A stretch of DNA of 64,000 nucleotides from NCBI GenBank assembly GCA_025464975.1, contig JAODMT010000009.1, forward strand, positions 1 through 64,000, written 5' to 3'. The notes beneath the pieces are model-generated. The model had not been told where the DNA came from and made no database searches. It saw only the letters and a list, made by a program, of their open reading frames with translations. The translations under genes and the position numbers were made by a program. Shown one piece after another: positions 19,075 to 44,741 of the stretch (position 1 is the first letter of the stretch; every line of letters starts with the position of its first letter). The DNA comes from Microbacteriaceae bacterium. GTDB taxonomy: Bacteria; Actinomycetota; Actinomycetes; Actinomycetales; Microbacteriaceae.

Positions 19075-19077
19075 CCC

Positions 19078-22921: not shown

Positions 22922-25900
22922 CTAAGCAGGGAGCGTCGCGGCTGGGAGCGTCGCGGCTGGAGGCGCCGCTGTGGGTCCCATCATCGTGGGCCCCATCGTC
23001 GGCGCAAGCACCCGTCCGATGGTGCCCTCGGGATCGAGCGACCAACACTGTCCGGAGTTGTGAGCGAGCGGCGGCGGCAGAGCCCTACCCCCGCTGATCG
23101 CCCGAAAGTCGGCGAGGCTGCAGCGGTCGAAGACCATGAGCGCACTCGAGCGAAGCGACCCGAGCAGTGACCAATTTGCCTGCCACGACTCGGGGTCTCC
23201 CACAATCGTGGTCGGTGCCGCCCCGTCCGAGACCAGGCGCGGGTCGGCACTCACCCGGCTCATCAGTCCCGCATGCCGACCTGCTACGCGCACAGTGTTG
23301 CCGGCCGCTCCCGCACCCCAGTTTCTGGTGGCGTCGTCGGGCCGGGTCGTCACGACCACGAGAGTCGGATACCGCTGCCGATCGGGCGCCGCCACGGGTG
23401 CTGTGCTCGAATCCGGCGACGCTGTCGGCTCGAGCGCCGAACGGACCGCGGCCGTCCCGGGAACGGCGACCTGAATTCGGGAGCCGCGCCACTCTCCGGA
23501 ACCGGGTGGCGCGGTCGCCGAGTAGCCGGACGGTGAACCTCCGGCCATGAGGCGATCCTGGCGGGTCGGCATCCGAAGCACGATCCTCGACTCAAACAGT
23601 CCGGCCAGCGTCTGCAGGTGCGGCGTAACCCTTCGGACGGCGACGGCGAGCGCGAGCCCGCTAGAGGCGCCCTCGCGGGCGAGTTCGGCAAGCCGATCGA
23701 CGAACTCGGCGCGGTATTCCTCGGGGAAGCGGCCCACGAGTGCGTCGAGGTCGTCGATCGCGATGACTCGCGGGCCGGGAGCCGCGGCACGAACCAGCCG
23801 GAGTGCCCTCTCGACCGCATCCCAGCTTCCATCGACGGTAGTCGGCATCCGCGCGACGTTCGAGGCGCCGGCGATCGTGGCAAGCACCGTGCTCTTGCCG
23901 GACTGCTGGCCGCCGATGACGAGCAGATTGCCATCCGCCTCGGGGCGGTAGCGGGCGACGGCGCGGGTCTGTCGCTCGGGAAGATCGAGAAGTCCAAACG
24001 GGATGCCGGCGTTCTGGTCGTCCGCATCGGGGTGGTCAACGCCCGTGGCACCGGGATTCCGGGCGTCCGCATCGAGGGACCCGACGTACACGAGAGACGG
24101 GAGCTCGTCGCACCACGGCCGGCGGATCCGGTCCGCTCCGACAGTTCGGATGTCCCGAACTCGCGCGATGTCGTCCGCCGCGGCAAGGGCGACGCGCACG
24201 CCGATCGGCTCCCCTCCCCCGATGCTGACGAAGGCGTGGCCGGGCCCGTCCGCCGACAGTTCCGCGGCGTGCGTTGTGCCGAGGACGGCGATGCTGTCCG
24301 CTCGGTTATTGACCCGGAGCGAGACGCGCAGCGCGGCGTTGGCCAGAACGGAGTCCCGAATCGCACCGGCCGGTCGTTGGGTGCAGAGGATCAAGTGAAG
24401 GCCGAGCGATCGGCCGCGCGCGGCGAGATCGGCGAACAGTTCGTGGAGCTCCGGGAAGTCTGAGGCCATCGCGGCGAACTCGTCGACGACAATGACCAGG
24501 CGGGGAAGGGTGACCCGGTGGTCGTCGACGTGTCTTGCTCCCGCATCCGCGATGATCCGCTCCCGGTAGCGAAGTTCGGCCCGCAGACTGACTAGCGCCC
24601 GGTTGGCCGCTCGATCGTCGAGATCGGTGACAACGCCGACCACGTGAGGCAGCTCCTGAATGGGTCCGAACGCCGATCCGCCCTTGAAATCGACGAGGAG
24701 AAAATTCACCGCCGCCGGTTCGTGCGCGGCGGCAATCGCCAGAATCCAGCTGACCAGCAGCTCGCTCTTTCCGCTTCCGGTCATTCCGCCGACGACGGCG
24801 TGCGGGCCATGGGCGACGAGGTCGATTCGAACCGGTCCGGTGTCCGACCAGCCGAACGTGCACGCAAGAGATCCGGGGGCGCCCGCCTCAACCGGAAGTG
24901 CGCTGAAGGCGCGTGGCAGGCCAGCGCCGTCGGATGGCGGCGAGATCCCGCGGGAAACTGCCGCCCTTGAGAGCAGGTCGGCGTGGGCTGCCGCCTCCTC
25001 GACGGAAATGAGCTCCACGGCAAGCGGGACCGGCACAGCTGATGCGGCGCCGTGATCGACCGTCGCCCGGCCGCCGGTCACCCTCAGGATCACCCTGCAC
25101 CCGCCGGGAACTGACTCGGGATCGTCGGTCACCGCGACGAGAACACTGTGGCTCCCGGCTCGCCACCGAACGGTCTGCACCGCGGACTCGTTGGCGATCG
25201 GCACCAGCCGGTGCGGCAGCTCGCCGAGCCAGCGGAGGCCTTCCCCGCCGGTCGATTCGATCCGCCATTCGGCTGGCGACAGGAGGTTGGCCAGCTGCAG
25301 GAGGATCCCGCGGGCCGCCGAGGAGCCGACACCGAGCGGGCCGCAGATTCCGATTCCGAGGCGAGCGTCGGAGACGGCCGGTACGGCCGGAATAATGGCC
25401 GCGTGCAATCGCAGACGCTCGAGATCAGCGCTAACGGCATCAACAGTCGGCCGCCTCGCGGCGGGGAGCCCCTCAATACGGAGCGAGCTTGACCCGGCGC
25501 CGAGACCGAGTCTTACCGGAACGGCCACCCCCACGCCGGTGAGCCACCGCTCCGGGTCCCTCACCGGCCGGTCACCGAGCTGCCGAGCTCCCGGGTTCGC
25601 GACGGACAGCAATTTTCGCTCCGTCGCATGACGCTCGTCGATGGCCTCGCGAGTCAGTTCGATCTCGCGCCTGAATCTCGAGGCCTCCAGACGCCGCGCT
25701 CTGCGGCGGTTGATGTGCGCGTCGACGAGGCTCGCCACGGCCACCACTGGTCCGAGAAACGCAAAGGCGAGGGCCATGGCCGACTGGGTGATTGCCCAGA
25801 TCACCACGGAACCGGCCACCGGGGCCAGGCTCGCGATGACGGGAAAGGGATGGCGCTGGGGCGGCGCCGGGGCCAACGGAGCGGCGAGCGGCAAAAGACC

Positions 25901-25939
25901 CGATCCGGGCGGCGGGAGGTCGAGGGCGGAATTGATCAC
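22922..25939 (-). CDS. FtsK/SpoIIIE-family ATPase, EccC/EssC-like
   Basis: Membrane-anchored multidomain ATPase resembling the motor of type VII secretion systems. It has 1005 residues. Two N-terminal membrane helices lie near 44-77. A first ATPase has Walker A GGMTGSGKSELL near residue 383, FLLVDFKGGSAF, Walker B LVIVVDEFAAM, and the FtsK-type LILCTQRPAG. A second ATPase has VIGGQQSGKSTVL near residue 673 and VIAIDDLDALVG. EssC proteins carry N-terminal FHA domains; none is seen here, but the next gene upstream (26032-27303) encodes one. The start is GTG 25939 without a strong ribosome-binding site. It is last in the 22.9-41.2 kb same-strand cluster. No WXG100 gene was found nearby, so the exported substrate, if any, is unknown. 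Confidence 0.85.
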   Translation of the reverse strand: MINSALDLPPPGSGLLPLAAPLAPAPPQRHPFPVIASLAPVAGSVVIWAITQSAMALAFAFLGPVVAVASLVDAHINRRRARRLEASRFRREIELTREAIDERHATERKLLSVANPGARQLGDRPVRDPERWLTGVGVAVPVRLGLGAGSSSLRIEGLPAARRPTVDAVSADLERLRLHAAIIPAVPAVSDARLGIGICGPLGVGSSAARGILLQLANLLSPAEWRIESTGGEGLRWLGELPHRLVPIANESAVQTVRWRAGSHSVLVAVTDDPESVPGGCRVILRVTGGRATVDHGAASAVPVPLAVELISVEEAAAHADLLSRAAVSRGISPPSDGAGLPRAFSALPVEAGAPGSLACTFGWSDTGPVRIDLVAHGPHAVVGGMTGSGKSELLVSWILAIAAAHEPAAVNFLLVDFKGGSAFGPIQELPHVVGVVTDLDDRAANRALVSLRAELRYRERIIADAGARHVDDHRVTLPRLVIVVDEFAAMASDFPELHELFADLAARGRSLGLHLILCTQRPAGAIRDSVLANAALRVSLRVNNRADSIAVLGTTHAAELSADGPGHAFVSIGGGEPIGVRVALAAADDIARVRDIRTVGADRIRRPWCDELPSLVYVGSLDADARNPGATGVDHPDADDQNAGIPFGLLDLPERQTRAVARYRPEADGNLLVIGGQQSGKSTVLATIAGASNVARMPTTVDGSWDAVERALRLVRAAAPGPRVIAIDDLDALVGRFPEEYRAEFVDRLAELAREGASSGLALAVAVRRVTPHLQTLAGLFESRIVLRMPTRQDRLMAGGSPSGYSATAPPGSGEWRGSRIQVAVPGTAAVRSALEPTASPDSSTAPVAAPDRQRYPTLVVVTTRPDDATRNWGAGAAGNTVRVAGRHAGLMSRVSADPRLVSDGAAPTTIVGDPESWQANWSLLGSLRSSALMVFDRCSLADFRAISGGRALPPPLAHNSGQCWSLDPEGTIGRVLAPTMGPTMMGPTAAPPAATLPAATLPA

Positions 25940-26031
25940 CGGACAAGCTGAGCAGGCGAGTTACCGCGCCGGGGAAGGAACCGTCGGCTCGTGGACTACC
26001 GCCGAGGGTGCCGACTGCTGAAGGAGTGGAC

Positions 26032-27303
26032 TCAGCTGACGATGAAGAACTGTTCGCCCATCTCGACCCGGGTTCCTCGTGCGACGCGGAATCTTCTCTC
26101 CGGCTCACAGCGCATCGGCCTCGACTCGGGTTCGCGCACGATCGTCCCGTTGCCGGAGAACCGGTCCTTCACCCAGAACGACCCGGCTTCCTGTCCGAAT
26201 TCGAGGTGCACCTTGGAAACGGAGCGACTGGGATCCAGCACCCTGACCAGCTGATCGAAATATTCGCCGGGTTCCGGTTGCGGGTTTCGCCCGATTAGTC
26301 CGGTGCCGTAGACGGTGAAGCTCTCGCCGGTACTGAACTGCAGCACGAAGCGCTCACCACGGTGTTGGCCGGAGCGCACAATGCGGGTAGCCTCGAGATC
26401 CTCGGCGTCATCGAATGCGCCAGGGGCCGGATTGTTCGACGTCGGTTTCGACGCAGCCGGTTTCGACGCGGCCGGATTCGACGCGGCCGGATTCGACGCG
26501 GCCGGTTTCGAAAAGATCGAGGCGGATGCCGTCGGAGCCACAGAAGCGCCAGCACCGGGGGTGTCGGAGAGGTCCCGCTCGCTCGGGCGCGACACCGCGT
26601 CCGGCGCCGGTGGGACGTTCGGCTCTGGCTCGTAGAAAACCGGTCGGACCGGGTTCACCAGCGGCGGCACCGAGAGGGAATCGACATTGATCACCACGGT
26701 GTCTCGTGAACGACCAAAGTCTTCGCTTGCCGCGCGGGAGACGTGGCCGCATTCGCCACAAAAAATGTCATTGATCGCCATCGGCGATCCGCACTGGGAA
26801 CAGACCTGCGGCGTTGACCCGCTGTTGGGCGCGGAGGATGCCCCGCTGTTGCGTGCCGGTTCGGCGAGCGGCGCCGACGGTTCGGCGGAAACCCGATTGC
26901 GGAACCCGCGTCGGACTGGAGCGTCGGACGAGCCGGTCCGCGCGCCGGCTGAGTCAACGGGCGACGGTTCAACGGCCGACGGGTCAACGGTCGACGGGTC
27001 AACGGTCGACGGTTCAGCCCCGGATGCCTGAGCGGACGCCGGAACCGCGCCGGATGGGACGGCGGCCGCCGGGTCACCGCCGGAAGAGTGAGCGCCAGCC
27101 GGCCGGGCGGTAGACGGTCGAGCAGGGGCCGGGCGAGCAGTGGCGGGCCGAGGAGTGACCGAGCGATCAGCGGCCGAGCGGGGCGGCGCGGCCGAGGATG
27201 GAGTCGCTGACGAAGCCGCCGACGCGGGAGTGACGGCCCTCCCGCACTCGCCGCAGAAGAGCGCGCCAATAGGCAGTTCCGTGCTGCAATACGGGCATCT
27301 CAT
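26032..27303 (-). CDS. Double zinc-ribbon, FHA-domain protein
   Basis: 423-residue adaptor-like protein. ATG 27303 has GAGGGGAG upstream; GTG 27309 is an alternative. A zinc ribbon opens the protein (CPYC, then CGEC: Cys 3, 6, 17, 20). A Ser/Thr/Pro/Ala-rich linker of about 130 residues follows, with repeats of the type TVDPS. A second zinc ribbon is CSQCGSPMAINDIFCGEC. A second low-complexity linker contains five-residue repeats (AASNP, AASKP). The C-terminal FHA domain has GLIGRNPQ, SVSKVHLEF and FSGNGTIV, the phosphothreonine-binding pattern. It likely reads phosphorylation by the kinase encoded at 38037-39452. It has no membrane segment. It lies 92 bp before the ATPase gene. Confidence 0.82.
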   Translation of the reverse strand: MRCPYCSTELPIGALFCGECGRAVTPASAASSATPSSAAPPRSAADRSVTPRPATARPAPARPSTARPAGAHSSGGDPAAAVPSGAVPASAQASGAEPSTVDPSTVDPSAVEPSPVDSAGARTGSSDAPVRRGFRNRVSAEPSAPLAEPARNSGASSAPNSGSTPQVCSQCGSPMAINDIFCGECGHVSRAASEDFGRSRDTVVINVDSLSVPPLVNPVRPVFYEPEPNVPPAPDAVSRPSERDLSDTPGAGASVAPTASASIFSKPAASNPAASNPAASKPAASKPTSNNPAPGAFDDAEDLEATRIVRSGQHRGERFVLQFSTGESFTVYGTGLIGRNPQPEPGEYFDQLVRVLDPSRSVSKVHLEFGQEAGSFWVKDRFSGNGTIVREPESRPMRCEPERRFRVARGTRVEMGEQFFIVS

Positions 27304-27327
27304 GGTCACACTCCCCTCGTTGAGCCG

Positions 27328-29724
27328 TTAACGCCGTCGCGTGAACAGACTCTTGACACTATAACCACGGAGAGATCGCAATGAGATGGCAGCCCTGAGC
27401 TTCTCTCGCCGGGAGCGTCCGGCGCCGAGCGACACCCGCAGGTCGTGAACCGCGCGCCACACCTGATCGGCTTCGTCGCTGTGCGGCTCGGTCGGTGCGA
27501 ACGCAGCACGGTCGGCAACCGCGGCGAGGACGAGCGGCCGGCTGCCGCCAACGGTCGCCGCGACCTCCGTGCGAGTTGGATGCGGCGGCGGGATGAACCC
27601 GTGATCCAACACGGCGTCTTCGAATTCACGCCAACCACCGCTGATGCGCTGAGCCGCGCTCGAGGCATACTTGCGTCGTCTGCGCCGCTGAAGCTTTGCG
27701 ACCACGATTGCAAGGAATGGGGCCAGCACTATGGCGACGCCGAGTGCCACGAATCCGGCGACGCGGAGAGCAGCGAGGATGATCGCAACGACCGGGTCGG
27801 GTGCGTGGGAGGTGTCCTTGGTCGTGCCGGGAGGAAGCTGCGAGGCAGGAGTCTGAGGCTGCTGTTGCGGTGGTTGCACCGGGGACTGTGGGCGGGTGAC
27901 GGTGATCGGTTTCTGCGGCTGCGCCTGCGGGATCGGTCGAATCGCCGGCGTCGGATCGATGGTCACCCATCCGTATTGACTCGTGTCGACCTCGATCCAC
28001 GCGGAAATGTCTGAGCCACGCACTTCGGTGGTGCCGCCCGAATGGACCGAGCCGGGGGCGAAGCCAAACACGACGCGGGACGGGAACCCGAGCTGCCGTG
28101 CCATGATCGCGGCGGTCACGGCGAATTGCTCCTGGTCTCCGATCATCCGCTGATCGGTGAGCAGCTGGGTGATCCGGTCCGCGGAATGGCCGGATCGACT
28201 CAACGGCTCGTCGGGCGAAACCCCGTGACTGACGTACCCCGTTGTCTTGATCGCCGCGATCATCGCCTGGAGCTTTGCCCCAGGCGTCGTGGCCGATTTC
28301 ACCCAATCGTTCAGCGTTGAGGAGAGGCCGTCCGGCACAACGGGCATCGGCGGCACGGGCGCCAAGCCAGGGCGAAGCGCATCGAGTTGGCCTTGTCCCG
28401 GCTGCCGCGGCACGACGGCGCTGAGGGTGTACGAGTCGCCGGCCGCGACAGGGCGAACCACGGCGGCGGTGCCGCTCTCGTTGTTGTAGAAGAACGAGTC
28501 CCGCAGGGCCGCCGCATCGGCACCGCCGAAGCTCACGGCGGTGAGCTTTCCGATGGTCGGAAGCCACACTCCGGCGTAGTGGTCAACGGTGATCTTCACG
28601 GTGACGGGGCTGCCACGAACGGCGGATTGGTCGTAGGTGTATGGCACCCGGGTGAACGAGCCGGATTCGCTCGTCACGAGGGAATCGCCGACCGAGAACA
28701 CAATCCCGTCGTACGTGTCGAGGGTCGCGATCCGGATGCGGCCGCCGGAAGGCAGCCCGGTTACTGAGAGCATCGCGCTGTCGGCCTGCGTGGGCTCCTC
28801 GTACCGACGGAAGCCGCTTAGTGGGCTCGGGTACTGGCGTGGATCGAAGGGCTGTACCACTGCCTGACGCAACACGTGTCGCTGTGCGGTCGGCGGAAGT
28901 GCGAGGGTGGCCGCCACGGCGCTGCCGCCGACAAGCACGACGATGAGAATGGCGCCCACAATGGTGCGGAAGCCCGCGGAGCTGGGACGGCTCGCCGCCC
29001 CGGCCGGGTCGAGGACCACCCCGGACAGGAGCCGGATGGATGCCCGCCGACGGTACCAGCGTCTCCAGACCAGCCAGCCAAGCGCCGACGCGAGCAAGCC
29101 GAGGGACAGCTCGAGCGGAAAGGTCGCCGTGTCCGGGCCAAACCCGATTGCGGCGACGAACAGGGTGATCGGTGCGATAACGCCGAGCTCGCCGACGCGA
29201 GCGCGAAGCCCGACCGACAGTCCGATCACCGTCGTGGCAAGCACGAGCAAGAATGCCGGCACAAGCAACGACTGGTAGGAGCCGACCGGAAGGGTAACGG
29301 TGAGCAACTCCTTCCACGCGAGGGCGGTGGCTTTCAAGAGTTCAATCTCCCCCGCAAGCGTCGGGAACACCACGTTCGTGGCTTCAGCGGGCACCGCGAG
29401 CGGCACACCGAGAACGAGATAGAGCCCGATGGTTGCGAGACACACGGTCAGTGACGACCAGCGAAAGAGTGCGCCGATCGTCGCCACGAGCGACCCCGTG
29501 ATGATGCTCACCCCGACGAGCACGATGAGCTGCACGCTCTGGTAGATGGGCCACAGCGCCGCGGCAGCGACCGAGGTCGTGAGCCAGAGGAAAGCCGTCG
29601 TCAACGCGAACAGCCCGAGCGGGAGCCGCCTCGGCACGCCGCCGACGACGCCCGGCCGGCGAACGGCCGGCCGCACGACCTTGCGCTCACGGGAAACGCT
29701 GTTCGCTCCGAGGTCGGCGCTCAT
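27328..29724 (-). CDS. Transglutaminase-like membrane protein (TgpA type), probable pseudoenzyme
   Basis: 798 residues. Several N-terminal membrane helices span about 25-240. A large extracytoplasmic region follows, with a transglutaminase-core domain near 500-600, a C-terminal helix near 690-720, and a cytoplasmic tail with RRRRRK. The start is ATG 29724, overlapping the DUF58 stop by four bases. In active family members the triad is Cys in GxCxxFA, His in HAWVEV and Asp in DPTP. Here the corresponding residues are Gln531 (GDQEQFA), Ser574 (SAWIEV) and Asp590 (IDPTP), so the thiol and the base are both missing. The fold is retained, which suggests a binding or scaffold role. The gene sits in the DUF58-MoxR context usual for TgpA. 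Confidence 0.88.
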   Translation of the reverse strand: MSADLGANSVSRERKVVRPAVRRPGVVGGVPRRLPLGLFALTTAFLWLTTSVAAAALWPIYQSVQLIVLVGVSIITGSLVATIGALFRWSSLTVCLATIGLYLVLGVPLAVPAEATNVVFPTLAGEIELLKATALAWKELLTVTLPVGSYQSLLVPAFLLVLATTVIGLSVGLRARVGELGVIAPITLFVAAIGFGPDTATFPLELSLGLLASALGWLVWRRWYRRRASIRLLSGVVLDPAGAASRPSSAGFRTIVGAILIVVLVGGSAVAATLALPPTAQRHVLRQAVVQPFDPRQYPSPLSGFRRYEEPTQADSAMLSVTGLPSGGRIRIATLDTYDGIVFSVGDSLVTSESGSFTRVPYTYDQSAVRGSPVTVKITVDHYAGVWLPTIGKLTAVSFGGADAAALRDSFFYNNESGTAAVVRPVAAGDSYTLSAVVPRQPGQGQLDALRPGLAPVPPMPVVPDGLSSTLNDWVKSATTPGAKLQAMIAAIKTTGYVSHGVSPDEPLSRSGHSADRITQLLTDQRMIGDQEQFAVTAAIMARQLGFPSRVVFGFAPGSVHSGGTTEVRGSDISAWIEVDTSQYGWVTIDPTPAIRPIPQAQPQKPITVTRPQSPVQPPQQQPQTPASQLPPGTTKDTSHAPDPVVAIILAALRVAGFVALGVAIVLAPFLAIVVAKLQRRRRRKYASSAAQRISGGWREFEDAVLDHGFIPPPHPTRTEVAATVGGSRPLVLAAVADRAAFAPTEPHSDEADQVWRAVHDLRVSLGAGRSRREKLRAAISLRSLRGYSVKSLFTRRR

Positions 29725-31124
29725 GCCGCCGCCGCGCGGGCGAGGGACTTTTGCAAGTCCTCGAGAAAGCCGATAGTGAGTACGCTGAGCCCGGCCAGCC
29801 GGCGAAGGCCCGGGATGGTTTCCGGGTCGCACACGACGGCGACCACCTCGACACCGGGAGGAAACTTGGCCGAGGCCGCCCGAAGCTCGGTCGCCGTCAC
29901 GAGGGATCCGCAGACCAGGAAGGCAACCGAGATGCCGGCAACCTCGTCGGCCGCAACCCGCGCGACATCCGCGATCCCAAGGGCCGATTCGGCCAGCTGA
30001 ACGACGGCGAGGTCGTCGAGCAGGCGAGCGCGGGTGAGCGTGTCGAGGTGCTTGACCGCGAGAACCTTTCGTTTCGCGAACTCGGGGGTCTTCTCGCTGA
30101 CGACAACCGAGACGTTCCGCGCGTCCCGGATGGCTCGCGCCCCGAGAGACCCGGTTACGCTGACCGCCATCTCGAACTCTTCGTCGGTGGCGTAGTTGGA
30201 GCCGGCAAGGCTGAGGGCGATCACGAGATGACTTCGGCGGGTCTCCTCGAACTGGCGCACCATGTGGGTGCCCGTCTTTGCAGTGCTCTTCCAGTGGATG
30301 TAGCGCCGCTCGTCTCCGCGCACATACTCGCGCAGCGCGTGAAAGGAGACGTCGCTGTTAGACAGGTCACGGGTCGGGTTGCCCTCGAGGTCGCGAATGA
30401 ATCCCGTACTCGTCGAGGGGATGGCGATCGTGCGGGGGTGCACGAACAGCTCCTTCGAGTCGGTCCAGACCAGCTCGCGGCGGACGAGGCCGACGAGGTC
30501 GGCTTTCACCGTTCGCGCCGGCCCGATCGACAGGATGCCACGGTGTGTGGTCGGCACGGGAAACTCGTGCCGGAACCCGGCGCCGCGCGCGAGCCCGGGC
30601 ATCACGATCTCCGCGAGACCGCGGCCGACCGGCACCTCGACCGTCACCCCGACGAGTCGCCGTCGAGTGGGGTTCGTGACCACGATCGCGCCGTGAGCCG
30701 GTTCACCGACGACGACCCTGGAGTGCGGAACGCTCAGTTCGATGGCGAATGGGTTTCGCCCGATGAGGGAGACGCCGGCGACGACGATGAGTGCCGAACC
30801 GGCGTAGGCGACAGCGACAAGCTCGACCCAGCCGAGCCGGTAGCCGAGAGCGAAGGCCAGGGGAACGGCAATGAGCATGACCCAGCCGAGAGGGGTCACC
30901 ACCGTTGATATCCGCCGCAGAACAGCGGCGACGAGCCGGCCGAGTGCGCGGACGACGCGCACAAGGGTGATGGTCACCTCCGCGAACGCCCCGGTCCGAT
31001 CTCCGACAATCCGAGTTCGGACGTTGGTGAGGCCGACGCTCGGCGTCGAATTGGCGGTCTCGGAGAGCGACGTCGGTGCGGCCGCGCTCGTCCGGGCGGC
31101 GCTGCTCCCGGCGGGGGCCCTCAC
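29721..31124 (-). CDS. DUF58 domain-containing membrane protein
   Basis: 467 residues. GTG 31124 overlaps the MoxR stop by four bases (GTGA). Two membrane helices lie near 75-115 (WVMLIAVPLAFALGY and VAYAGSALIVVAGVSLIG). The DUF58 signature is LREYVRGDERRYIHWKSTAKTGTHMVRQFEE, followed by a von Willebrand A-like region (SHLVIALSLAG). DUF58 proteins are regularly encoded with MoxR AAA ATPases and TgpA-like transglutaminases and are thought to act with them in envelope functions, although the exact role is unproven. It is coupled on both sides by start-stop overlaps. Confidence 0.9.
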   Translation of the reverse strand: MRAPAGSSAARTSAAAPTSLSETANSTPSVGLTNVRTRIVGDRTGAFAEVTITLVRVVRALGRLVAAVLRRISTVVTPLGWVMLIAVPLAFALGYRLGWVELVAVAYAGSALIVVAGVSLIGRNPFAIELSVPHSRVVVGEPAHGAIVVTNPTRRRLVGVTVEVPVGRGLAEIVMPGLARGAGFRHEFPVPTTHRGILSIGPARTVKADLVGLVRRELVWTDSKELFVHPRTIAIPSTSTGFIRDLEGNPTRDLSNSDVSFHALREYVRGDERRYIHWKSTAKTGTHMVRQFEETRRSHLVIALSLAGSNYATDEEFEMAVSVTGSLGARAIRDARNVSVVVSEKTPEFAKRKVLAVKHLDTLTRARLLDDLAVVQLAESALGIADVARVAADEVAGISVAFLVCGSLVTATELRAASAKFPPGVEVVAVVCDPETIPGLRRLAGLSVLTIGFLEDLQKSLARAAAA

Positions 31125-32092
31125 ACCGCCTGCCGGTCGTTCGGCGGAGGCGTCTGGATGAGGAGCTGGCTGATGATGCTTGAGGAGGTCACACCGTCGA
31201 ACTCGGCCTCGGGATCAAGCACGAGCCGGTGCGCCAGCACCGGCTCAGCAAGCGCCTTGATGTCGTCGGGGATGACATAGTGGCGAGCGTTTGCCGCGGC
31301 GAGCGTCTTCGCGGTGCGGACCAGAGCGAGGGCGCCGCGAACGCTCGCGCCGAGCCGCACCTCCGGAGCCGACCTGGTCGCCTCGACGAGGCGGGACACG
31401 TAGTCGTTGATGCTTGCATCGACGTGCACCGTTCGCGCCAGGGCCGCCATCTCGATGATCACCCGGTCCGTCGCGATGGCCGGAAGAATCGTGTCGTGGG
31501 CCCTGATTCCGGCGCCTTCGAGGATGCGCACCGTTGAGGCGTGGTCGGGGTAGCCAATGGATGTCTTGATCAGGAATCGGTCCAGTTGCGCCTCCGGGAG
31601 GCGATAGGTGCCGGCCTGTTCGATCGGGTTCTGGGTCGCGATCACCATGAAGGGGCTTCCCACCGGATGGGAGATGCCGTCCACCGTGACCCGGGACTCC
31701 TCCATCACCTCGAGGAGCGCCGCCTGGGTCTTCGGGCTGGCACGGTTGATCTCGTCCGCAAGAACGATGTTCGCGAATACCGGCCCGCGGTGGAATTCGA
31801 AACTGCCGATGCCCTGGTCGTAGATGCTCACGCCGGTGATGTCCCCGGGCAGCAGATCCGGGGTGAACTGGATGCGGGTCGTTGAGCCCTGCACGCTCTG
31901 CGCCATCGCCCGAGCGAGCGAAGTCTTTCCGGTTCCGGGAAAGTCTTCGAGCAGCAGGTGGCCATCGCTCAGAAGGGCCGTGAATGACAGCTTGATGACA
32001 AACGTCTTTCCGAGGAGCACCTGGTCGACATTCGCGACGAGGCGATTGAATACCTCGGAGAACCAGGTTGCCTGCTCCGGTGTCATTGTCAT
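31121..32092 (-). CDS. MoxR family AAA+ ATPase
   Basis: Chaperone-type AAA+ ATPase of 323 residues. Walker A is FPGTGKTSLARAMA, Walker B VLADEINRASPKTQAALLEVMEE, sensor 1 FMVIATQNPIEQAGTYRLPEAQLDRF. The C-terminal lid domain is VRLGASVRGALALVRTAKTLAA. These ATPases usually pair with a von Willebrand A/DUF58 partner, here the next gene, overlapping by four bases. The start is ATG 32092, with GAGAGG upstream; an ATG at 32086 is also possible. The gap to the large upstream gene is 58 bp. Confidence 0.94.
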   Translation of the reverse strand: MTMTPEQATWFSEVFNRLVANVDQVLLGKTFVIKLSFTALLSDGHLLLEDFPGTGKTSLARAMAQSVQGSTTRIQFTPDLLPGDITGVSIYDQGIGSFEFHRGPVFANIVLADEINRASPKTQAALLEVMEESRVTVDGISHPVGSPFMVIATQNPIEQAGTYRLPEAQLDRFLIKTSIGYPDHASTVRILEGAGIRAHDTILPAIATDRVIIEMAALARTVHVDASINDYVSRLVEATRSAPEVRLGASVRGALALVRTAKTLAAANARHYVIPDDIKALAEPVLAHRLVLDPEAEFDGVTSSSIISQLLIQTPPPNDRQAV

Positions 32093-32150
32093 TCAGGTGC
32101 CTCTCGTGTCGGACTCGTCGGCCGTGGGTTGGTGGACAGTACTAGCAGCG

Positions 32151-35100: not shown

Positions 35101-38027
35101 ACGGCAACGGGATTGCGAGCGCCGGCAAGCTTCGCGCTGATCCCCACCCGAATGGTGCCGACGGCTCGCGCCCCGAGGGCATCGATGACGGTGTAGCTGA
35201 ACGAGTCGGTTCCAGCGGAGTAGTCGCCGGCGAGGAAGTCGAGGTAGTCGGGCCCGACCGCGGTCACCGATCCCTTCGTCGGGTTGGTTGCCTGTCCGAG
35301 GAACTGCACCGAGTCGCCGTCGGGATCGATGCCGGTGAGAGGGATCGGGATGCGCACGGTCTGGCCGGCCAGCACGCGAGCCACGACGGTCACGGGGACC
35401 GGCGGGTTGTTGGTCGCGAGCACGGGTTCCCGCACCGAGATCTTGACCTCGGCCTGTGCCGCCTGACCGCTCGAGTCGGAGACGGAGTACACGGCGGTGT
35501 AATCGCCGGTCCGCTTGGGAGCGAGGTAGCGCAGCAGATTTCCGGAGGCGAAGAGCAGCCCCGAGCCTGCGGCTAGGTTTTTCGACAGCTGCGGATTGAG
35601 GGTGAGGGTTTCACCATCCGGCTGCACATCGTTGTTCAGCACGGGAATGTTGATCGCATCGCCGACTCTGACGGTCACGCTGTCGTCGTTCGCAATCGGG
35701 GGCTGAAGCCTCGTCGGTGAAATCTCGATGACCGTGACCGTGCCCTCTGCTTCGGCGAGGCCGTTGCTGATCCGATAGTTGAAGCTCACCGGCCCCGAGT
35801 CGAGTGGTCCAGTCAGGTTCACTCGGATCGAGCGCTCGTCGATGACCTCTGCCTGCACACCGGATGCCGGGGAGACGTTGTAAACGCCGGTGACCAGGAG
35901 CACCGCGCCAGCCGGATCGTAATCGGTGTCCGCGACGTCGATCGTCTGGGTGCCCAACGACCGAACGAAGACGGTCTTCGGGATGGTGATCGGCTTGGTG
36001 TTCACGTTCGGCGGCGCCGCAACGTCGATTCGAACGACCCCGTCTGCGGTCTGATCGCCGTCGTTGACCACGTAGTCGATGTAGTGGGTGCCGACCTGGT
36101 CGCTCTCGAAGGTGAAGGTTCCGGCCTCGATGCTCGCGACGATCGTCGCACCGGTCTTGCCGGGAACACTCACGAGGCGCAGCGTTCCGGTGCCCCCGCG
36201 CACGTGGCTGAGCGGATCGACGGTCAGCTGCTGTCCGGAGTACGCCAGCTTGATGAACGGGTCGGCGATGATGGGAACCTGACCGGCCGGCTTGACGGTC
36301 ACGGTGAGTGAGCCGGTAGTCTCCGCCTTGCCGTCGGAGACCAGGACGGCGACCGAACGAACCCCAGGCACGGCACCCCCATCGGTGAACACTACGGTTC
36401 CCTCCGGCCGAGAGCTCACCGTATCCGGCGGTGCGGTTGATGCGGAGGTCAGGTAGATGGGGTCCCCGTCGGGGTCGACCCAGTCGGCAAGCACCGGGGT
36501 CGTCACCCGGCCACCCGCGGCTACCACCGCGCTGGACTGCCGCACCTGCTGCGGCGGTGAATTCTGCGAGGGGAGACGCACCTGAACCGTGACCCGCGCA
36601 CTTGCCGTTCCGCCGCGGCCGTCGCTGATCGTGTAGCCGAAGGACACCGCCCCACTCGCGGTGGAGGCGAGAGTCAGCTGCACCTGCTGGTTGTCATTGA
36701 TCAGGTCGAGATGCCCGACCGCCGCGTCAACGGGGGTCACGTCGGAGATGACGATGACATCACCGTTCGGGTCGTAGTCGTTGAGCAGAATCGGAAGAAC
36801 CGACGAGCGACCGGGGCGGGCGCCGAAGGAGTCGTTGACGGCAACCGGCGGCAACTCGGCCTTCTCAAACTGGGGAGGGGTGGCGTTGTTGTTGTCGACG
36901 ACCTGCTGTGTGTTCTGCGGAACCGCGATGAGGTCCGACCAATTGTCGATGAGTTCACCGTGCTGCTGCACGGCCCACGCGCCACCGCCGTGAACATCGT
37001 TGAGCACGACGTGACCGCCGTTCGAGGCGAAGGTCAAGCCGGCTGCCGGGGGCAGGTTGGACAGCGAAAGGGTCGCCGGCGAGGCAGGACCGCATTTGCG
37101 CCAGGCGGTGCCGATCGACCAGGCCGCGTAGGTGCACGAGCCGATGACCGCGGGCGGCGCGGGGGTCCCACCGGTTCCGTGAACGAGCGTGACCACCGGG
37201 CCACCGCCGAGCGGAACACTGAGCAGGCCGCCGGAGTAGGAGAGCAGGATGCCGTCGCCCGTGTCGCTCGGCTGTTGCAGCACCGGGCCGGAATCGGCCG
37301 GGATCTTGGAGGCAAGATTCACCGTGCCGCCCGATGTCAGCATGGTTCGGCTGGCCACGTCAAAAAGCGCCCAGGTGCCCCCGACCGAAGTGATCGCGAT
37401 CTTGGATTTCGCGTTACCGAGGTGGGCTTTCACCGTCTCGGACACGGCCTGCGAGTGGGCGGCGTCGACCCGGTAGACCTCTCGCGCGGCGGCCGAATAG
37501 GCGAACAGCACACCGTCGGGTGTCACGCTCGCGACGGAGTCTCCGCCGAGGCTCAGCGTCGGTTGAGACTGGGCATCAAATCGCGCGAGTTGGCTCAGCG
37601 GCGTGATCCAGAACTGCCCGGTTCCGCCCGACCCAACGACGACATTGTCGCCGGCGAGCATGAGTTCGGGATTCTGCGGGGGAAGCGGCACGCTGTCCAG
37701 CACCTTCGAGGTCGCCGGATCGACGATGTCGACCTTTCCGTTGCTGCGGTCGAACAACAGAACCGTTGAGCCGTGCTGAATGACGTCGATGTCGGTTCCG
37801 GTGCTTGCCACCACCGTGTTGAGTTGGAGCACTTGCGGGTTTGCCCGCCCGATGGCGCGAGCGGACCCATTGGCCACCCACACCGAGCCGTCATTGAGGT
37901 CGAGCCGCTGCGCCGTGTAGCCACTCGAGACGATCGCGACCGTCGCGATGAGCGCCGCAATGACCGATCCGCTTGTCGCCGTCGCGACAAGGGATCGGTG
38001 ACGGAAGAACCACTGTTTCACCGACAT
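32151..38027 (-). CDS. Giant membrane-anchored Ig-like/FN3 repeat protein
   Basis: 1958 residues. A short basic N-terminus and one membrane helix (about 13-33) are followed by an extracytoplasmic remainder. Residues about 38-385 look like a beta-propeller-type region (repeats such as TVLLFDRSNGKVDIVDP and GVLFAYSAAAREVYRVD). About eleven cadherin/Ig-like repeats of 90-100 residues follow (about 390-1465), marked by ND-DP-GD patterns such as LPILLNDYDPNGD and IPVLNNDVQPDGE. Several fibronectin type III domains follow from about 1470 (PDPVTALSVSSFGDRTLTLRWSPGSSNNSPITGYDV). No LPXTG sorting signal is seen. It lies directly after the Ser/Thr kinase gene (9-bp gap). This matches the FN3 partner in bifidobacterial kinase-FN3-AAA clusters. 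An adhesive or wall-sensing role is inferred. Confidence 0.88.
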   Translation of the reverse strand: MSVKQWFFRHRSLVATATSGSVIAALIATVAIVSSGYTAQRLDLNDGSVWVANGSARAIGRANPQVLQLNTVVASTGTDIDVIQHGSTVLLFDRSNGKVDIVDPATSKVLDSVPLPPQNPELMLAGDNVVVGSGGTGQFWITPLSQLARFDAQSQPTLSLGGDSVASVTPDGVLFAYSAAAREVYRVDAAHSQAVSETVKAHLGNAKSKIAITSVGGTWALFDVASRTMLTSGGTVNLASKIPADSGPVLQQPSDTGDGILLSYSGGLLSVPLGGGPVVTLVHGTGGTPAPPAVIGSCTYAAWSIGTAWRKCGPASPATLSLSNLPPAAGLTFASNGGHVVLNDVHGGGAWAVQQHGELIDNWSDLIAVPQNTQQVVDNNNATPPQFEKAELPPVAVNDSFGARPGRSSVLPILLNDYDPNGDVIVISDVTPVDAAVGHLDLINDNQQVQLTLASTASGAVSFGYTISDGRGGTASARVTVQVRLPSQNSPPQQVRQSSAVVAAGGRVTTPVLADWVDPDGDPIYLTSASTAPPDTVSSRPEGTVVFTDGGAVPGVRSVAVLVSDGKAETTGSLTVTVKPAGQVPIIADPFIKLAYSGQQLTVDPLSHVRGGTGTLRLVSVPGKTGATIVASIEAGTFTFESDQVGTHYIDYVVNDGDQTADGVVRIDVAAPPNVNTKPITIPKTVFVRSLGTQTIDVADTDYDPAGAVLLVTGVYNVSPASGVQAEVIDERSIRVNLTGPLDSGPVSFNYRISNGLAEAEGTVTVIEISPTRLQPPIANDDSVTVRVGDAINIPVLNNDVQPDGETLTLNPQLSKNLAAGSGLLFASGNLLRYLAPKRTGDYTAVYSVSDSSGQAAQAEVKISVREPVLATNNPPVPVTVVARVLAGQTVRIPIPLTGIDPDGDSVQFLGQATNPTKGSVTAVGPDYLDFLAGDYSAGTDSFSYTVIDALGARAVGTIRVGISAKLAGARNPVAVPDEVAVRPGGTVSVQVLANDSNPDGGKLTITKVQPNAKNIVASIRGDIVRVTPPRQAGRYGLVYTVQNEFGGASSAFITVDVRADAPRAYPVVSDTVLTLSDVLGRSTLDVNVLKNVFFADGDASQLDVSVLPSYSSQAHVLSNKRIHVTVRNKSQIIPFAVAHPADPNVVSYGFVWVPGLDDALPQLNRDAPPLTVASESQLTINLNDYVLAIGGKQVRLTSAASVQATHSNGASLVSGDHTLRFTSADKYFGPASISFEVTDGTSASDPNGRKATLVLPIQVTPRQNQPPLFVGGDIDFEPGSSRDIDLLRLTNYPYPKDVGELSYTVLTPLPTGFSYTLTGHILSLRANENAPKNSTTAIVLGVKDALTSGQSGQIRLNVVASSRPLARPAPDSVVVPRGQSTTVDVLANDEATNPFPGRPLKVIAIRGLDGGSTPNGVTITPSADNQKLTVSVSPTAQPTDTSLQYEVADATGDPDRYVWGSVTVSVQDRPDPVTALSVSSFGDRTLTLRWSPGSSNNSPITGYDVVMTSAAGDPLSTTSCGATVCDLATAGNGPDNGVHLRVVAKNSIGQSDPTRLGPTVWSDIIPPAPAGLGATPLDGGLKIFWQAVSVPSGGSAVTEYRVTAGSTSVDVDPSKCVDGTCSTSVLGLTNGQAIPVTVSARNSALATLASWNSSETSATPAGKPLAVGTPTATATDSTIATSWAGAFTGNGRDISGYTAVAYTGAQPTCDTPEPPGATAQSVGTATSAAFSGLASDSSYSVLVFARNSIGCTPSSAVVARTSPGVVTAVTTTGPTQNGQTFDFQLTGASIGGTSLGSEYTFYYRLSGASVPSTQYGPIAFGGLLTAEGQQYGQDVSVQVRACRTVGNGGPVCQSQWSASFEVGTPVDPRVGSVSYSPTTDGLVSAGTFTWPTWPSGTYQEIEYDCAAPNQVFLKADTTQGGSCQVPVGTASPTLTIRVFANGGHSYDIRYDAAGNVQ

Positions 38028-38036
38028 GGTGGCGCG

Positions 38037-39452
38037 TCACCCGCCAACGCTGAGGCATTTTTCTCGCGGGGCGCCGGTCTTTCCGCCGCGGGTGACGGAG
38101 ACAATGATGCACACCCTGTCGCCGGCGACGGCATCCTGAGTGAAGTCGGTGGCCGTCTGCACCGAAACCCCGCCTCCGGTCGTGATCTCGTAGGAGTCGC
38201 TCGCGGCCAGGCCCGGGTTGCTCCAGCTGAACCGGACCGACGCGGCACCGGCCGACGCCTGGATCGCCGCAACCCGCGGGATGCCCTCGGAGTTCGATCG
38301 AACGAGCACGACTGTTGCCGCGATGCCAAGAACGATCACGATCACGAATCCCACGATCAGGGCCACGATCCAGGCCGTTGCCGGTCTGCCGCGGTTGAGG
38401 GTCGGCACCCCGCTCGGCGATCCCGCGGCGCTCGTGTGGGGCCGTCGGGAACCCGGCTCGACGGCCGACTCCTGACCGGCGGGCCTTTTCCGGCGCCGGT
38501 TGGGCGAATGCGGAGGGGCGCCAACCGCGCCACGGATCCTGGTGCGATCCTCGAGGTCGGAAACGCTCGGTCGCGCCCACTCGTCCATGGCGACCTCGAT
38601 CGCGGTCTGCGGCAGGCCGAGCTCGCTCTCGATCGCTTGCAGCTCGCGAACGAGCTCCAGAACGGACTGCTGTCGCGCCTCCGGCTTGCGGGACATGGCT
38701 CGAGCAAGTGCGCGCTCGAGCGTCGGCGGGACATCCGATCGTCCGGTGGGATGCACTCGAGCCCGGAGGATTCGCGACGTGAGCTCGGCCGTCTTGTTCG
38801 GCTCGCCGGCCATCTCGAATGGCGAGCGGCCGGCGAGGAGCGAGTAGACGGTTGCCGCGAACGACCACACCTCGGAGGAGATCGTGCCTGCAGTCTCGTC
38901 GGACAGCACCTCCGGGGCGGACCACGGGATACTCAGTCCGACCGATTCGCTGGTGTGCACCTCGCTCACCGTTGACGCGATGCCGAAGTCTGACAGCACC
39001 GGATGGCCATAGGCGGTGAGCAGGATATTGGACGGCTTGATATCACGGTGCAGCACGCCCGCGCGGTGGGCCGTCTCGATCGCGCTGCCGATCTTGACGG
39101 CGATTCGAAGCACTTCGGCAACGGGGATTCGTTCCCGCCGATAGCGTTCGCTCAGAGCGGCCGAGCACAGTTCCATCACGAGGTACGGCCGGCCGTCGGA
39201 CGACACGCCAGCCTGATAGACGGTGAGGATAGACGGGTGCGAACTGAGCTGAGCCATCAGGTTGGCCTCGGCCTGAAACATCCGCCTCACGTGGTCATCG
39301 ACGACCTCGCTCAGGAGCACCTTGACGGCCACCTGCCGTCTCGGCATGTTCTGTTCATAGAGAAACACGTCGGCGAATCCGCCGGAACCGAGAATGTTTA
39401 TGGTCGAGAAGCCAGGCAGCACCGGAGGCTGGGACGGCAAACGTCGTGCCAT
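38037..39452 (-). CDS. Membrane Ser/Thr protein kinase with FN3-like extracellular domain
   Basis: 471 residues. ATG 39452 is preferred; an in-frame GTG at 39467 would include the GGAGGGGGAG ribosome-binding site. The kinase domain (about 15-280) has glycine loop GSGGFADVF (22-30), Lys44 in VAVKVL, catalytic HRDIKPSN (Asp137), DFG at 155-157 and APE at 179-181, so it should be active. The usual SD(I/V)xS Asp of subdomain IX is Glu (SSEVWSF). A Pro/Arg-rich juxtamembrane linker leads to one helix (about 358-385) and an 86-residue extracytoplasmic FN3-like domain, instead of the PASTA repeats of PknB. It likely phosphorylates the FHA proteins of the cluster. Confidence 0.92.
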   Translation of the reverse strand: MARRLPSQPPVLPGFSTINILGSGGFADVFLYEQNMPRRQVAVKVLLSEVVDDHVRRMFQAEANLMAQLSSHPSILTVYQAGVSSDGRPYLVMELCSAALSERYRRERIPVAEVLRIAVKIGSAIETAHRAGVLHRDIKPSNILLTAYGHPVLSDFGIASTVSEVHTSESVGLSIPWSAPEVLSDETAGTISSEVWSFAATVYSLLAGRSPFEMAGEPNKTAELTSRILRARVHPTGRSDVPPTLERALARAMSRKPEARQQSVLELVRELQAIESELGLPQTAIEVAMDEWARPSVSDLEDRTRIRGAVGAPPHSPNRRRKRPAGQESAVEPGSRRPHTSAAGSPSGVPTLNRGRPATAWIVALIVGFVIVIVLGIAATVVLVRSNSEGIPRVAAIQASAGAASVRFSWSNPGLAASDSYEITTGGGVSVQTATDFTQDAVAGDRVCIIVSVTRGGKTGAPREKCLSVGG

Positions 39453-39578
39453 CGCTCCCCCTCCCACGCCAGTGGACGGCCCCCGCGACCGTCGTAAGGG
39501 CTGACCCCCGCTCTTATTGTAGGCATGCTCCCAATCCGTCTCGCGGAGCGAATCCGCTGATCACGACGGGTTTGTCGG

Positions 39579-39619
39579 CCCCCGTTTGGGGGGACGGCCG
39601 CCCCTGAAGGGGTGGGCCG
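39579..39619. terminator. Double hairpin between phosphatase and kinase genes
   Basis: CCCCC/GGGGG with a GTTT loop (39579-39592) is followed by CGGCC-G-CCCCT/AGGGG-TG-GGCCG (39595-39619). It lies in the 234-bp gap 39453-39686, the largest in the cluster. A TACAAT -10-like element on the minus strand is at 39521-39516, upstream of the kinase start, so the cluster may be two transcription units. No gene is seen in the gap. Confidence 0.45.
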
Positions 39620-39686
39620 GTGCGAAATTCTGGCCTTCACGTGTTCCCCGCGAACGCTAGCGGCGATCGGTTCGCGCAGCGGCGTC

Positions 39687-40532
39687 TCAGCCCCGCATAG
39701 TGGGAGTGGGCCCGGTGCGCGGAATCGTGTTGTCGGTCTCGCCGATTCCCGTGCTGTCGACCACGTCGACGACGATGGCCGTGATGTTGTCGCGGCCACC
39801 GGCCGCGAGGGCGGCTCCAACGAGGTCGAGCGCCGTCTCCTGCGCGGAACGGGCGGCAGCCAGGTGCAGCCGCAGGCCCTCGCGGTCGACCTCCTTGGTG
39901 AGCCCGTCGGAGCAGATCAGCAGCCGCAGACCACGGCGAACGGGCACAACCCAGTAGTCCGGGATCGCGTCCATGTTGAACCCGACCGCGCGGGTGATGA
40001 CGTTGCTGTCGGGGTGGGACTCCGCATCCTCCGCCCGGATCACGCCCGCGTCGACGAGTTCTTGCACGACCGAGTGATCGATGGTCACCTGAACGAGTTC
40101 GTTGTGTTCGAAGAGGTAGACGCGCGAGTCCCCCACGTTGAACACGGTCCAAGACGGTTCTCCGTCCAGCAACGAGAGCGCCGCGCCGGTGACCGTCGTG
40201 CCAACGCCGAGCTCCTTCTCGTCGAGCGCGAGCGCGATATCGTCGGTGGCTGCCCGAAGCCCCCGTTCGATGGTGTCAACGTCGGTGAAGTCGCCGATGA
40301 TCCCTTGGGAGAGTCGATCGACGACCGCCGCGCTGGCCACGTCGCCGGCGGAGTGCCCACCCATACCGTCGGCCACGGCGAAGATCGGCGAACGAGCAAG
40401 AAAGCTGTCCTCGTTGTGCGACCGGCGATTGCCGGTGTCCGTCGCCGCGCCCCAGGCGAGCACCAAAACGGCGTCGGGGCGCTCCGGAATGGCGACGGGG
40501 TACTCGGCAACGCTTTGGCCTATCTCGGTCAC
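39687..40532 (-). CDS. PP2C-family Ser/Thr protein phosphatase
   Basis: 281 residues, cytosolic, of the PrpC/PstP type. All metal-binding motifs are present: NRRSHNEDSF, VADGMGGHSAGDVAS, NVGDSRVYLF, LLICSDGLTKEV and GGRDNITAIVVD. Unlike mycobacterial PstP it has no membrane segment. GTG 40532 overlaps the upstream FHA gene stop by four bases. Its expected role is to reverse phosphorylation by the adjacent kinase. Confidence 0.94.
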   Translation of the reverse strand: MTEIGQSVAEYPVAIPERPDAVLVLAWGAATDTGNRRSHNEDSFLARSPIFAVADGMGGHSAGDVASAAVVDRLSQGIIGDFTDVDTIERGLRAATDDIALALDEKELGVGTTVTGAALSLLDGEPSWTVFNVGDSRVYLFEHNELVQVTIDHSVVQELVDAGVIRAEDAESHPDSNVITRAVGFNMDAIPDYWVVPVRRGLRLLICSDGLTKEVDREGLRLHLAAARSAQETALDLVGAALAAGGRDNITAIVVDVVDSTGIGETDNTIPRTGPTPTMRG

Positions 40533-41182
40533 AGAAGCCTTTCGCCAGTCGCGAATGTTCCGGTGCCATTGGACACCGCGCGCTGGATGGGAAGTATTTC
40601 GACAATGTTGCCGTCACCAATATTTACCACTGCGCCGACCGACACGACAACTGACTCGCCCTGTCGCAGGGTCAGTGGCACGGATCCCGGCATAGTGACA
40701 ACGGTGCCGTTGGTGGATCGGAGATCGGTAACGACGACGGATGGGCCGTGCTGGCGCAGTTCGATATGAGAGCCCGACACCTCCCGCGCAGGCGACGGCA
40801 CGCGCACGAGGCGTGCCGGCTGGCCGGTCGGAATTCGGGATTGTGCGGGTTGCCTGCCGACGACGATCGGAACTTCGAGGGCGATTGGCTCCCCGGAGTT
40901 GATGGCGACGCGGTACAGCGCGAACCGCGCGGGCGCGACGGGCGGTGACTCGACCGACGCCGGTGGCCGCCCGGCGAGTGCCGTCGTCTTTATTACCGTC
41001 GCCTCGGTCAACACCGTCGCCTCTGTCAACGCGGCGGACTCGTCACCGCGCACCGTGCGGCTCTCCCGAAGGATGGTGTCCGCGTCCGGGTCTGCGTCCG
41101 CGGTCGGGTCGGAGAGGTCGGGTGCCGGGCGCGGCGACCACAGAACCGTGTCCTCCGCCTCATCCGTTGCCATGCTCCCCAT
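40529..41182 (-). CDS. FHA-domain protein with Thr-rich N-terminal tail
   Basis: 217 residues. The C-terminal FHA domain shows IVVGRQP, REVSGSHIEL and DLRSTNGTVV, the phosphothreonine-binding pattern. The N-terminal half is acidic and disordered and contains the duplicated motif TEATVLTEATV before the FHA domain. GarA/OdhI-type regulators have a phosphorylatable Thr motif in the same relative place that folds back on the FHA domain; a similar switch here is an inference. The start is ATG 41182 or 41173. It is the first gene of the cluster and begins 43 bp after the aldehyde dehydrogenase stop. Confidence 0.85.
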   Translation of the reverse strand: MGSMATDEAEDTVLWSPRPAPDLSDPTADADPDADTILRESRTVRGDESAALTEATVLTEATVIKTTALAGRPPASVESPPVAPARFALYRVAINSGEPIALEVPIVVGRQPAQSRIPTGQPARLVRVPSPAREVSGSHIELRQHGPSVVVTDLRSTNGTVVTMPGSVPLTLRQGESVVVSVGAVVNIGDGNIVEILPIQRAVSNGTGTFATGERLL

Positions 41183-42785: not shown

Positions 42786-43253
42786 ATGAGTCCGAATTCG
42801 AAGCCCACGCAACTTGACGACGTCTCCAAGGCGATCATCGAACAGTTACAAGCGGACGGCCGACGAAGCTACGCCGAGATTGGTAAGGCCGTAGGGCTCA
42901 GCGAGGCCGCGGTGCGGCAGCGGGTGCAGAAGCTCACGGATTCCGGCGTCATGCAGGTGGTGGCGGTCACCGACCCGATGCAACTGGGTTTCTACCGCCA
43001 GGCCATGATCGGAATCCGGGTGACCGGCGACTCGACGATCGTCGCCGAGAAGCTCAGCACCATTCCCGCCGTGGACTACGTCGTGCTCACCGCCGGGAGC
43101 TTCGACATCCTCGCCGAAATCGTCTGCGAGAACGACGACGACCTGATGAGCCTCCTCAACAAGACCATCCGGATGATCCCGGGAGTGCTGTCGACCGAGA
43201 CCTTTGTCTACCTGAAATTGCAGAAGCAGTTCTACAACTGGGGAACCCGCTGA
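42786..43253 (+). CDS. Lrp/AsnC family transcriptional regulator
   Basis: 155 residues. The N-terminal helix-turn-helix is LDDVSKAIIEQLQADGRRSYAEIGKAVGLSEAAVRQRVQKL. A C-terminal ligand-binding RAM domain contains VVLTAGSFDILAEIVCENDDDL. The start is ATG 42786. It is divergent from the aldehyde dehydrogenase and 59 bp upstream of the aminotransferase on the same strand. It is probably the local sensor of an amine or amino acid, controlling both directions; the ligand is unknown. Confidence 0.93.
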   Translation: MSPNSKPTQLDDVSKAIIEQLQADGRRSYAEIGKAVGLSEAAVRQRVQKLTDSGVMQVVAVTDPMQLGFYRQAMIGIRVTGDSTIVAEKLSTIPAVDYVVLTAGSFDILAEIVCENDDDLMSLLNKTIRMIPGVLSTETFVYLKLQKQFYNWGTR

Positions 43254-43312
43254 GCCGCGGCTCCTCAGTTCCGACCGGGGCGATCCGCCCGCAAGAGAGA
43301 AGGCAGAAGAAG

Positions 43313-44731: not shown

Positions 44732-44741
44732 GACCGGCAGA

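Follow-up and report, generated by a model that had tools for sequence, protein, structure and literature searches.

The PFNA operon of Bifidobacterium contains pkb2, fn3, a MoxR-type aaa-atp gene, duf58 and tgm in that order, accompanied by prpC and fha, and MoxR has been reported as a substrate of Pkb2 (PMC8430577, available sections). Those sections name neither an EccC-type ATPase nor a WXG100 protein, and the available part of a second PFNA paper (PMC6803598) does not mention type VII, FtsK or WXG. Among type VII secretion systems (T7SSs), for which Garrett et al. 2024 describe classes T7SSc–j in the sections at hand (PMC11217815), T7SSd of Olsenella and Bifidobacterium is nearest to the present case. 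It combines an EssC-type ATPase (TsdC, with an N-terminal FHA and four NTPase domains), one WXG100 protein encoded in the cluster, a Ser/Thr kinase and a large secreted Ig-like protein, and phospho-control has been proposed for it; MoxR, DUF58 and Tgm are not among its components as named there. The available part of a 2016 Bifidobacterium paper describes a type VII/WXG100 cluster of 15 open reading frames. Here, we analyse a 64,000-nucleotide stretch (the window) of contig JAODMT010000009.1 from a Microbacteriaceae bacterium (assembly GCA_025464975.1), in which a PFNA-type cluster is followed by the gene of a short EccC/EssC-type ATPase. On balance, we think it probable that this ATPase powers a reduced type VII-like exporter, with a single WXG100 protein encoded beside groEL as its partner or substrate. 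The most valuable result, this likely partner, lies outside the window.

A profile search recovered all nine minus-strand genes that the first-pass annotation had listed between 22922 and 41182, with the domains it had named (Table 1). Its gene list was right and its observation as a whole is confirmed, including the resemblance of seven genes to the bifidobacterial PFNA cluster (the five core genes plus prpC and fha). The order pkb2-fn3-aaa-duf58-tgm is kept, and the fn3 product has both FN3 domains and a predicted N-terminal helix as putative signal or anchor. Compared with the described operon, prpC and fha come first instead of last, and a zinc-ribbon FHA protein (ZnFHA) and the EccC-type ATPase have been added (PMC8430577, available sections).

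The type VII character assigned to the ATPase is supported by both the TIGR03928 profile and an EccC fold, with scores far under the curated cut-offs of the full-length models (EssC, 263 bits against 778; EccCa, 206 bits against 509). Its AlphaFold model (predicted local distance difference test, pLDDT, 84) comprises two N-terminal helices, a linker region, a D1 motor (residues about 350–600), D2 (about 650–835) and a short third-domain remnant (about 855–980), these names being assigned by comparison with EccC. The best Foldseek entries were 4nh0, 4n1a and 4lya; 4nh0, the top solved match (E 1e-29), is the cytoplasmic portion of EccC from T. curvata, and EssC and FtsK motors came next. Two N-terminal helices followed by FtsK-like domains are shared with T7SSb EssC and T7SSa EccC; unlike these, the ATPase lacks a full third motor domain. 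It also departs from the TsdC layout of T7SSd in its length of about 1000 amino acids (aa), the lack of an FHA match, its composition of D1, D2 and remnant instead of four NTPase domains, and its unlinked WXG100 gene, and the likeness to T7SSd is drawn from the described components. Across 32 aligned ATPases, the D1 Walker A motif, the D486-E487 pair and R508/R510 are invariant, and the P-loop lysine of D2 varies. In a D1 tree (unrooted and with several long branches), the Microbacteriaceae short ATPases form one side of a branch supported at 100/96, and a position of other-family ATPases inside the short clade was rejected. The study genome has one TIGR03928 match at E<=1e-40. Another of its frames, of 838 aa, matches an FtsK-type domain weakly, at 24–26.5 bits (G000:C17:435048-435341, locus L034).

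No WXG100-like gene had been noticed in the cluster, which had been judged not to be a standard ESX locus, and both statements hold. The WXG100 model matched nothing at E<=1 among 9634 frames from the window and the 20-kb ATPase loci of 39 relatives, ruling out a hidden WXG100 gene inside the cluster. Instead, the sole PF06013 match of the genome is on another contig (G000:C19:28204-28488, 58.9 bits), where it follows genes for a response regulator and a histidine kinase and is separated from the groEL 3' end by 160 bp. This protein has the WxG and YxxxD/E motifs: W43, G45 and Y83 are invariant in 32 aligned homologues, and E87 is found in at least 90% of them.

Among 150 Microbacteriaceae genomes, 105 contained both the ATPase and the WXG100 gene and 36 contained neither, leaving nine in disagreement, one with only the ATPase and eight with only WXG100 (Fisher p 1e-25, kinship not corrected for). 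These counts rest on complete per-genome rows of matching genomes, and seven genomes whose sole WXG100 match was weaker than 1e-10 were scored as lacking the orthologue (G003, G004, G017, G019, G047, G087 and G098). The ATPase-only genome (G061) is 75% complete. Among the WXG100-only genomes, G010, G013, G081, G092, G095 and G144 have ATPase frames of 318–363 aa that match the motor only, and G039 (83% complete) lacks any ATPase frame. In 60 groEL loci fetched, WXG100 stood beside groEL in 36/36 positives and was absent from 24/24 negatives, at least nine of which keep genes of regulator and kinase lengths. On a GroEL tree of these loci and the study genome (61 sequences, chosen by WXG100 status, with G039 and G066 left out), each trait changed 11 times, and all eight supported independent pairs were concordant (p 0.008; 11 pairs on the best tree).

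The genomic link between the ATPase and its PFNA neighbours is of another kind. We fetched 20 kb around the ATPase from 39 of the 106 Microbacteriaceae genomes scored as having it, and genes were called with a codon-usage script trained on this family, which performs poorly in AT-rich genomes. The block of Ser/Thr kinase, FN3, MoxR, DUF58 and Tgm genes precedes the ATPase in 27 loci, a recurrence far beyond chance. Matches to all nine proteins were found in 26 of them, L056 lacking FHA and ZnFHA; in L048, whose fetched stretch ends inside PP2C, it is ZnFHA that gives the FHA match. Relatives with the ATPase beside PFNA or PP2C genes include Agromyces cerinus, Cryobacterium suzukii, Microbacterium hominis and metagenome-assembled Microbacteriaceae genomes. 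The other 12 loci lack the block at that place (L047, L052, L054, L055, L057, L064, L065, L067, L069, L070, L071 and L074); by eye, they often lie near genes resembling the atp synthase operon and alanine dehydrogenase, and PP2C still adjoins the ATPase in nine of them. Conversely, an intact ATPase was found in none of 20 FN3 loci, 15 of them from genomes scored negative for the short ATPase and five from genomes having it elsewhere. Four of these loci (L312, L313, L316 and L330) keep the block and ZnFHA, followed by an opposite-strand gene of 371–372 aa with the length and direction of alanine dehydrogenase. Motorless ATPase-like stubs of 144–320 aa follow ZnFHA in L314 (14836-15798), L317 (14725-15594) and L315 (15015-15449); the groEL-side WXG100 is likewise missing from these three genomes. 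At this place, L318 and L319 carry unmatched genes of 93 and 279 aa, and the remaining FN3 loci have other neighbours.

The FN3 protein was searched with its first 500 residues, and in the 150 genomes, counting as present a match of about 1e-92 or better and divergent copies as absent, 67 had both ATPase and FN3, 39 only the ATPase, 16 only FN3 and 28 neither (Fisher p 0.004). In the GroEL-tree pair test, 1.3 of 8 pairs changed in the same direction, 1.6 in opposite directions and 5.1 showed no difference, so the association is weak and is not borne out on the tree. In G016, G097 and G100, the ATPase and WXG100 are present and the FN3 query is unmatched even at E<=1e-8. The conserved neighbourhood on which the first-pass annotation made its view depend stands as far as the 27/39 loci go; since block-free ATPase loci and FN3 loci without an intact ATPase both occur, the PFNA module and the ATPase are separable modules. 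The stronger claim of one obligate machine is not supported, as each is lost without the other and the ATPase tracks WXG100 and not the FN3 protein, so the interpretation as a whole is supported only in part. The ATPase seems tied less to the adjacent kinase genes than to the groEL-side WXG100. The kinase may still control the ATPase, because PP2C persists in nine of the 12 block-free loci and the S-x-x-H motif is kept in both FHA proteins (28/28 aligned sequences each).

PFNA genes also occur beside a second, longer class of type VII ATPases. In 20 long-EssC loci, about half of them chosen for a nearby FN3 match, FN3-MoxR-DUF58-Tgm genes share the 20-kb stretch with the ATPase in seven (L174, L175, L176, L178, L179, L186 and L190), and PP2C, FHA and Ser/Thr kinase genes are often nearby in these PFNA-bearing loci. 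Demequina, Pseudoclavibacter and two Microbacterium species likewise have MoxR-DUF58-Tgm near a long EssC-class ATPase. The long class shares its PFNA-type surroundings with the cluster of the window and differs from it in an ATPase of 1446–1503 aa, with an N-terminal FHA in both proteins scanned, in nearby WXG100-like genes and in an extra gene. Of 35 small genes near long EssC, 23 match WXG100 at E<=0.01; of the loci with PFNA genes, L175, L176 and L190 have a match that exceeds the cut-off, and L174, L178 and L179 one that falls short of it. The extra gene encodes 235–269 aa with FHA and helix-turn-helix features recognized by eye (L172 16078-16887, L174 15653-16381, L175 721-1428, L178 795-1511 and L179 14194-14973) and is a possible phospho-responsive regulator. 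Given the linkage in 27/39 short-ATPase loci and the PFNA genes beside long EssC, PFNA and T7-type ATPases do, in part, often belong together, and these repeated meetings keep a regulatory or conduit role open.

In the exporter that we favour, the ATPase would sit in the membrane via its two N-terminal helices, a WXG100 dimer would dock by means of the YxxxE signal at its C-terminus, and export would be driven by the conserved D1 turning over ATP with the help of D2. The kinase, PP2C, two FHA proteins, propeller/Ig/FN3 protein, MoxR, DUF58 and putative pseudo-transglutaminase would form a separable phospho-regulated envelope module that, beside ATPases of the short and long class, perhaps regulates the ATPase or provides an envelope conduit. 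Several observations weigh against this reading. The two genes are unlinked in the Microbacteriaceae genomes with fetched ATPase loci, and their distances co-vary only weakly beyond GroEL (19 genomes; partial r 0.28, a value reached in 195 of 5000 permutations). G066, which is 97% complete, has WXG100 and no ATPase match. The third ATPase domain is only a remnant, and in EccC this domain binds the signal peptide (entry 4n1a is titled as such a complex). Short ATPases were recognized by eye, from how far the matches extend and how long the frames are. The 838-aa FtsK-like frame has no other Pfam match at 0.001 and is unclassified. The machine may also have more parts, such as EccB, EccD or EssB-type components.

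The first-pass annotation joined the kinase, the PFNA proteins and the ATPase into a single phosphorylation-controlled secretion or envelope machine, which we now regard as rather unlikely. The block preceding the ATPase in 27/39 loci, the PFNA paralogues in 7/20 long-EssC loci (about half FN3-selected), the persistence of PP2C, and T7SSd, whose ATPase is paired with a large Ig-like protein and a kinase (PMC11217815, available sections), are all consistent with it. Yet the 12 block-free ATPase loci, the four loci that run from PFNA through ZnFHA with no ATPase after it, the three genomes with ATPase and WXG100 and no FN3 match, and the tree test point to independent losses; this loss argument is itself weakened by the block lying elsewhere in the genome for some of the 12 (e.g. 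G033 and L328). A different account would have the groEL-side WXG100 serve the long EssC systems, so that its match with the short ATPase would follow from genome type alone. EssC normally has WXG100 proteins as substrates, and a long EssC is present in many of the genomes that contain both genes. However, a long EssC-class ATPase is present in 34 of the 36 genomes with neither gene (G005 and G088 among them), several long-EssC loci have WXG100-like genes of their own, and 33 genomes that have no TIGR03928 match at 1e-40 besides the short ATPase (with three candidates scored in each) keep one WXG100 match each, all of which makes this account very improbable.

It is also conceivable, if improbable, that the ATPase and WXG100 cooperate in something other than export, such as an envelope-stress or septum checkpoint in which WXG100 gates the ATPase inside the cell. 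Such a role would suit the stress-like position of the WXG100 gene between a two-component regulator pair and groEL in the study genome, the lack of other known T7 parts or cargo here, and one locus outside Microbacteriaceae (L208 9948-19317) where a T7-type ATPase gene lies between FtsX permease and WhiB genes with a PdtaS-type kinase beyond. It was the single other-family ATPase locus scanned by Pfam, and several others have similar gene lengths. The conserved YxxxE signal and the fold, which is that of secretion ATPases, argue instead for export.

Reduced and distant versions of the pair bear on how far the exporter proposed here might extend. Four reduced genomes that keep WXG100 encode single-motor ATPases of 318–346 aa (L212 10226-11182, L213 9837-10877, L214 9477-10493 and L215 9482-10504); these have Walker A, DE and GR-x-LG, and their N-terminus looks hydrophobic by eye. 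At 1e-6, the WXG100 model matched 205 of 248 order-level genomes, 18 of these being Microbacteriaceae. groEL lies within about 3 kb of WXG100 in six of 12 other-family loci (for L222, by search coordinates), and in the other six no groEL was called in the fetched stretch. ATPase frames were re-read in 80 of the 248 genomes. In family f4, four of the five genomes examined have only an ATPase frame of 622–668 aa and one WXG100 match; f4 is probably Bifidobacteriaceae, because the ATPases of Bifidobacterium subtile and B. tsurumiense are of the same size. All four genomes examined in family f12 have only frames of 1384–1531 aa and no WXG100 match. The picture is mixed in other families, where many genomes with WXG100 hold only long ATPase frames (e.g. 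G150, G167 and G195), so the short-ATPase pairing is shown for Microbacteriaceae and only suggested beyond.

We would tentatively entertain, while leaning against it, a broader proposal: much of the order would have a type VII exporter of two genes, the membrane ATPase and the groEL-side WXG100, with no other known T7 part needed; in the smallest genomes the ATPase would be a single motor of about 320–350 aa on two membrane helices, and PFNA would be a regulator taken on by two T7 ATPase classes. In that case, bacteria regarded as free of type VII secretion would carry a minimal version, and the series of ever smaller motors, with WXG100 as the unchanging partner, would reveal which part of the ATPase suffices for WXG100 handling. 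The available part of the Pontimonas salivibrio genome paper states that there are no type VII systems (PMC6106888), and a genome putatively of this species (G030) has both the short ATPase and the WXG100 gene. A search of titles and abstract openings in one open library retrieved no report of a groEL-linked WXG100 with a short ATPase. The bifidobacterial PFNA operon, in turn, gains a second family context, beside secretion ATPases.

Table 1. Genes of the PFNA-type cluster and the adjoining ATPase, in transcription order (window coordinates)
Feature	Coordinates	Strand	Profile matches
FHA-domain protein, 217 aa, first gene of the cluster	40529..41182	-	PF00498 1.1e-6
PP2C-type Ser/Thr phosphatase, 281 aa	39687..40532	-	NF033484 4.2e-58 (under its cut-off), PF13672 1.5e-8
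Ser/Thr kinase, one membrane-helix-like stretch (by eye), ~80-aa ectodomain	38037..39467	-	PF00069 7.5e-40
Big/FN3 protein, 1958 aa	32151..38027	-	Big_9 (Pfam) 1.2e-70, fn3 (PF00041) 5.7e-13
MoxR AAA+ ATPase, 323 aa	31121..32092	-	PF07726 4.4e-61
DUF58 protein, 467 aa	29721..31124	-	PF01882 2.4e-10
TgpA-like protein (Tgm), transglutaminase-type core	27328..29832 (start perhaps 29724)	-	PF01841 1.4e-13
Zinc-ribbon protein (two ribbons) with C-terminal FHA (ZnFHA), 425 aa	26032..27309	-	PF13240 1.7e-9 (two stretches), PF00498 3.6e-4
EccC/EssC-type ATPase, 1005 aa	22922..25939	-	PF01580 2.7e-32, TIGR03928 263 bits

The gaps between the genes, in transcription order, are -4 (FHA/PP2C), 219 (PP2C/kinase), 9 (kinase/FN3), 58 (FN3/MoxR), -4 (MoxR/DUF58), -112 (DUF58/Tgm, or -4 if Tgm starts at 29724), 18 (Tgm/ZnFHA) and 92 (ZnFHA/ATPase). 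A promoter scan found one site against 1.3 in shuffled sequences, and a terminator scan 11 against 8.7.

The HRD and DFG motifs of the kinase are intact in 27 of 28 aligned sequences, with a gap in one, and its ectodomain is conserved, with two invariant cysteines (25/25). The kinase had been described as FN3-ended; Pfam gives no fn3 domain there at E<=0.01. In the Big/FN3 protein, an N-terminal helix and a beta-propeller (about residues 44–370) are predicted ahead of the Big/cadherin repeats and the FN3 domains. The AlphaFold model of residues 1–500 (window 36528-38027) has a pLDDT of 85, with low confidence for the helix, and its Foldseek matches are beta-propellers, the best being an archaeal surface-layer YVTN propeller. 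The transglutaminase core of Tgm does not have the Cys-His-Asp triad of an active enzyme: at what we take to be the catalytic positions, Cys and His are missing from all 26 aligned sequences. Because of this absence, the PFNA-type 'tgm' product of Microbacteriaceae looks, from its alignment, like a pseudo-enzyme.

The cluster is flanked by genes for an aldehyde dehydrogenase (41226-42662, minus strand) and an alanine dehydrogenase (21736-22851, plus strand). Further out, the segments 17297-20277 and 42786-46151 of the window contain ABC transporter genes, an AsnC-type regulator, a class-III aminotransferase and an FAD oxidoreductase.

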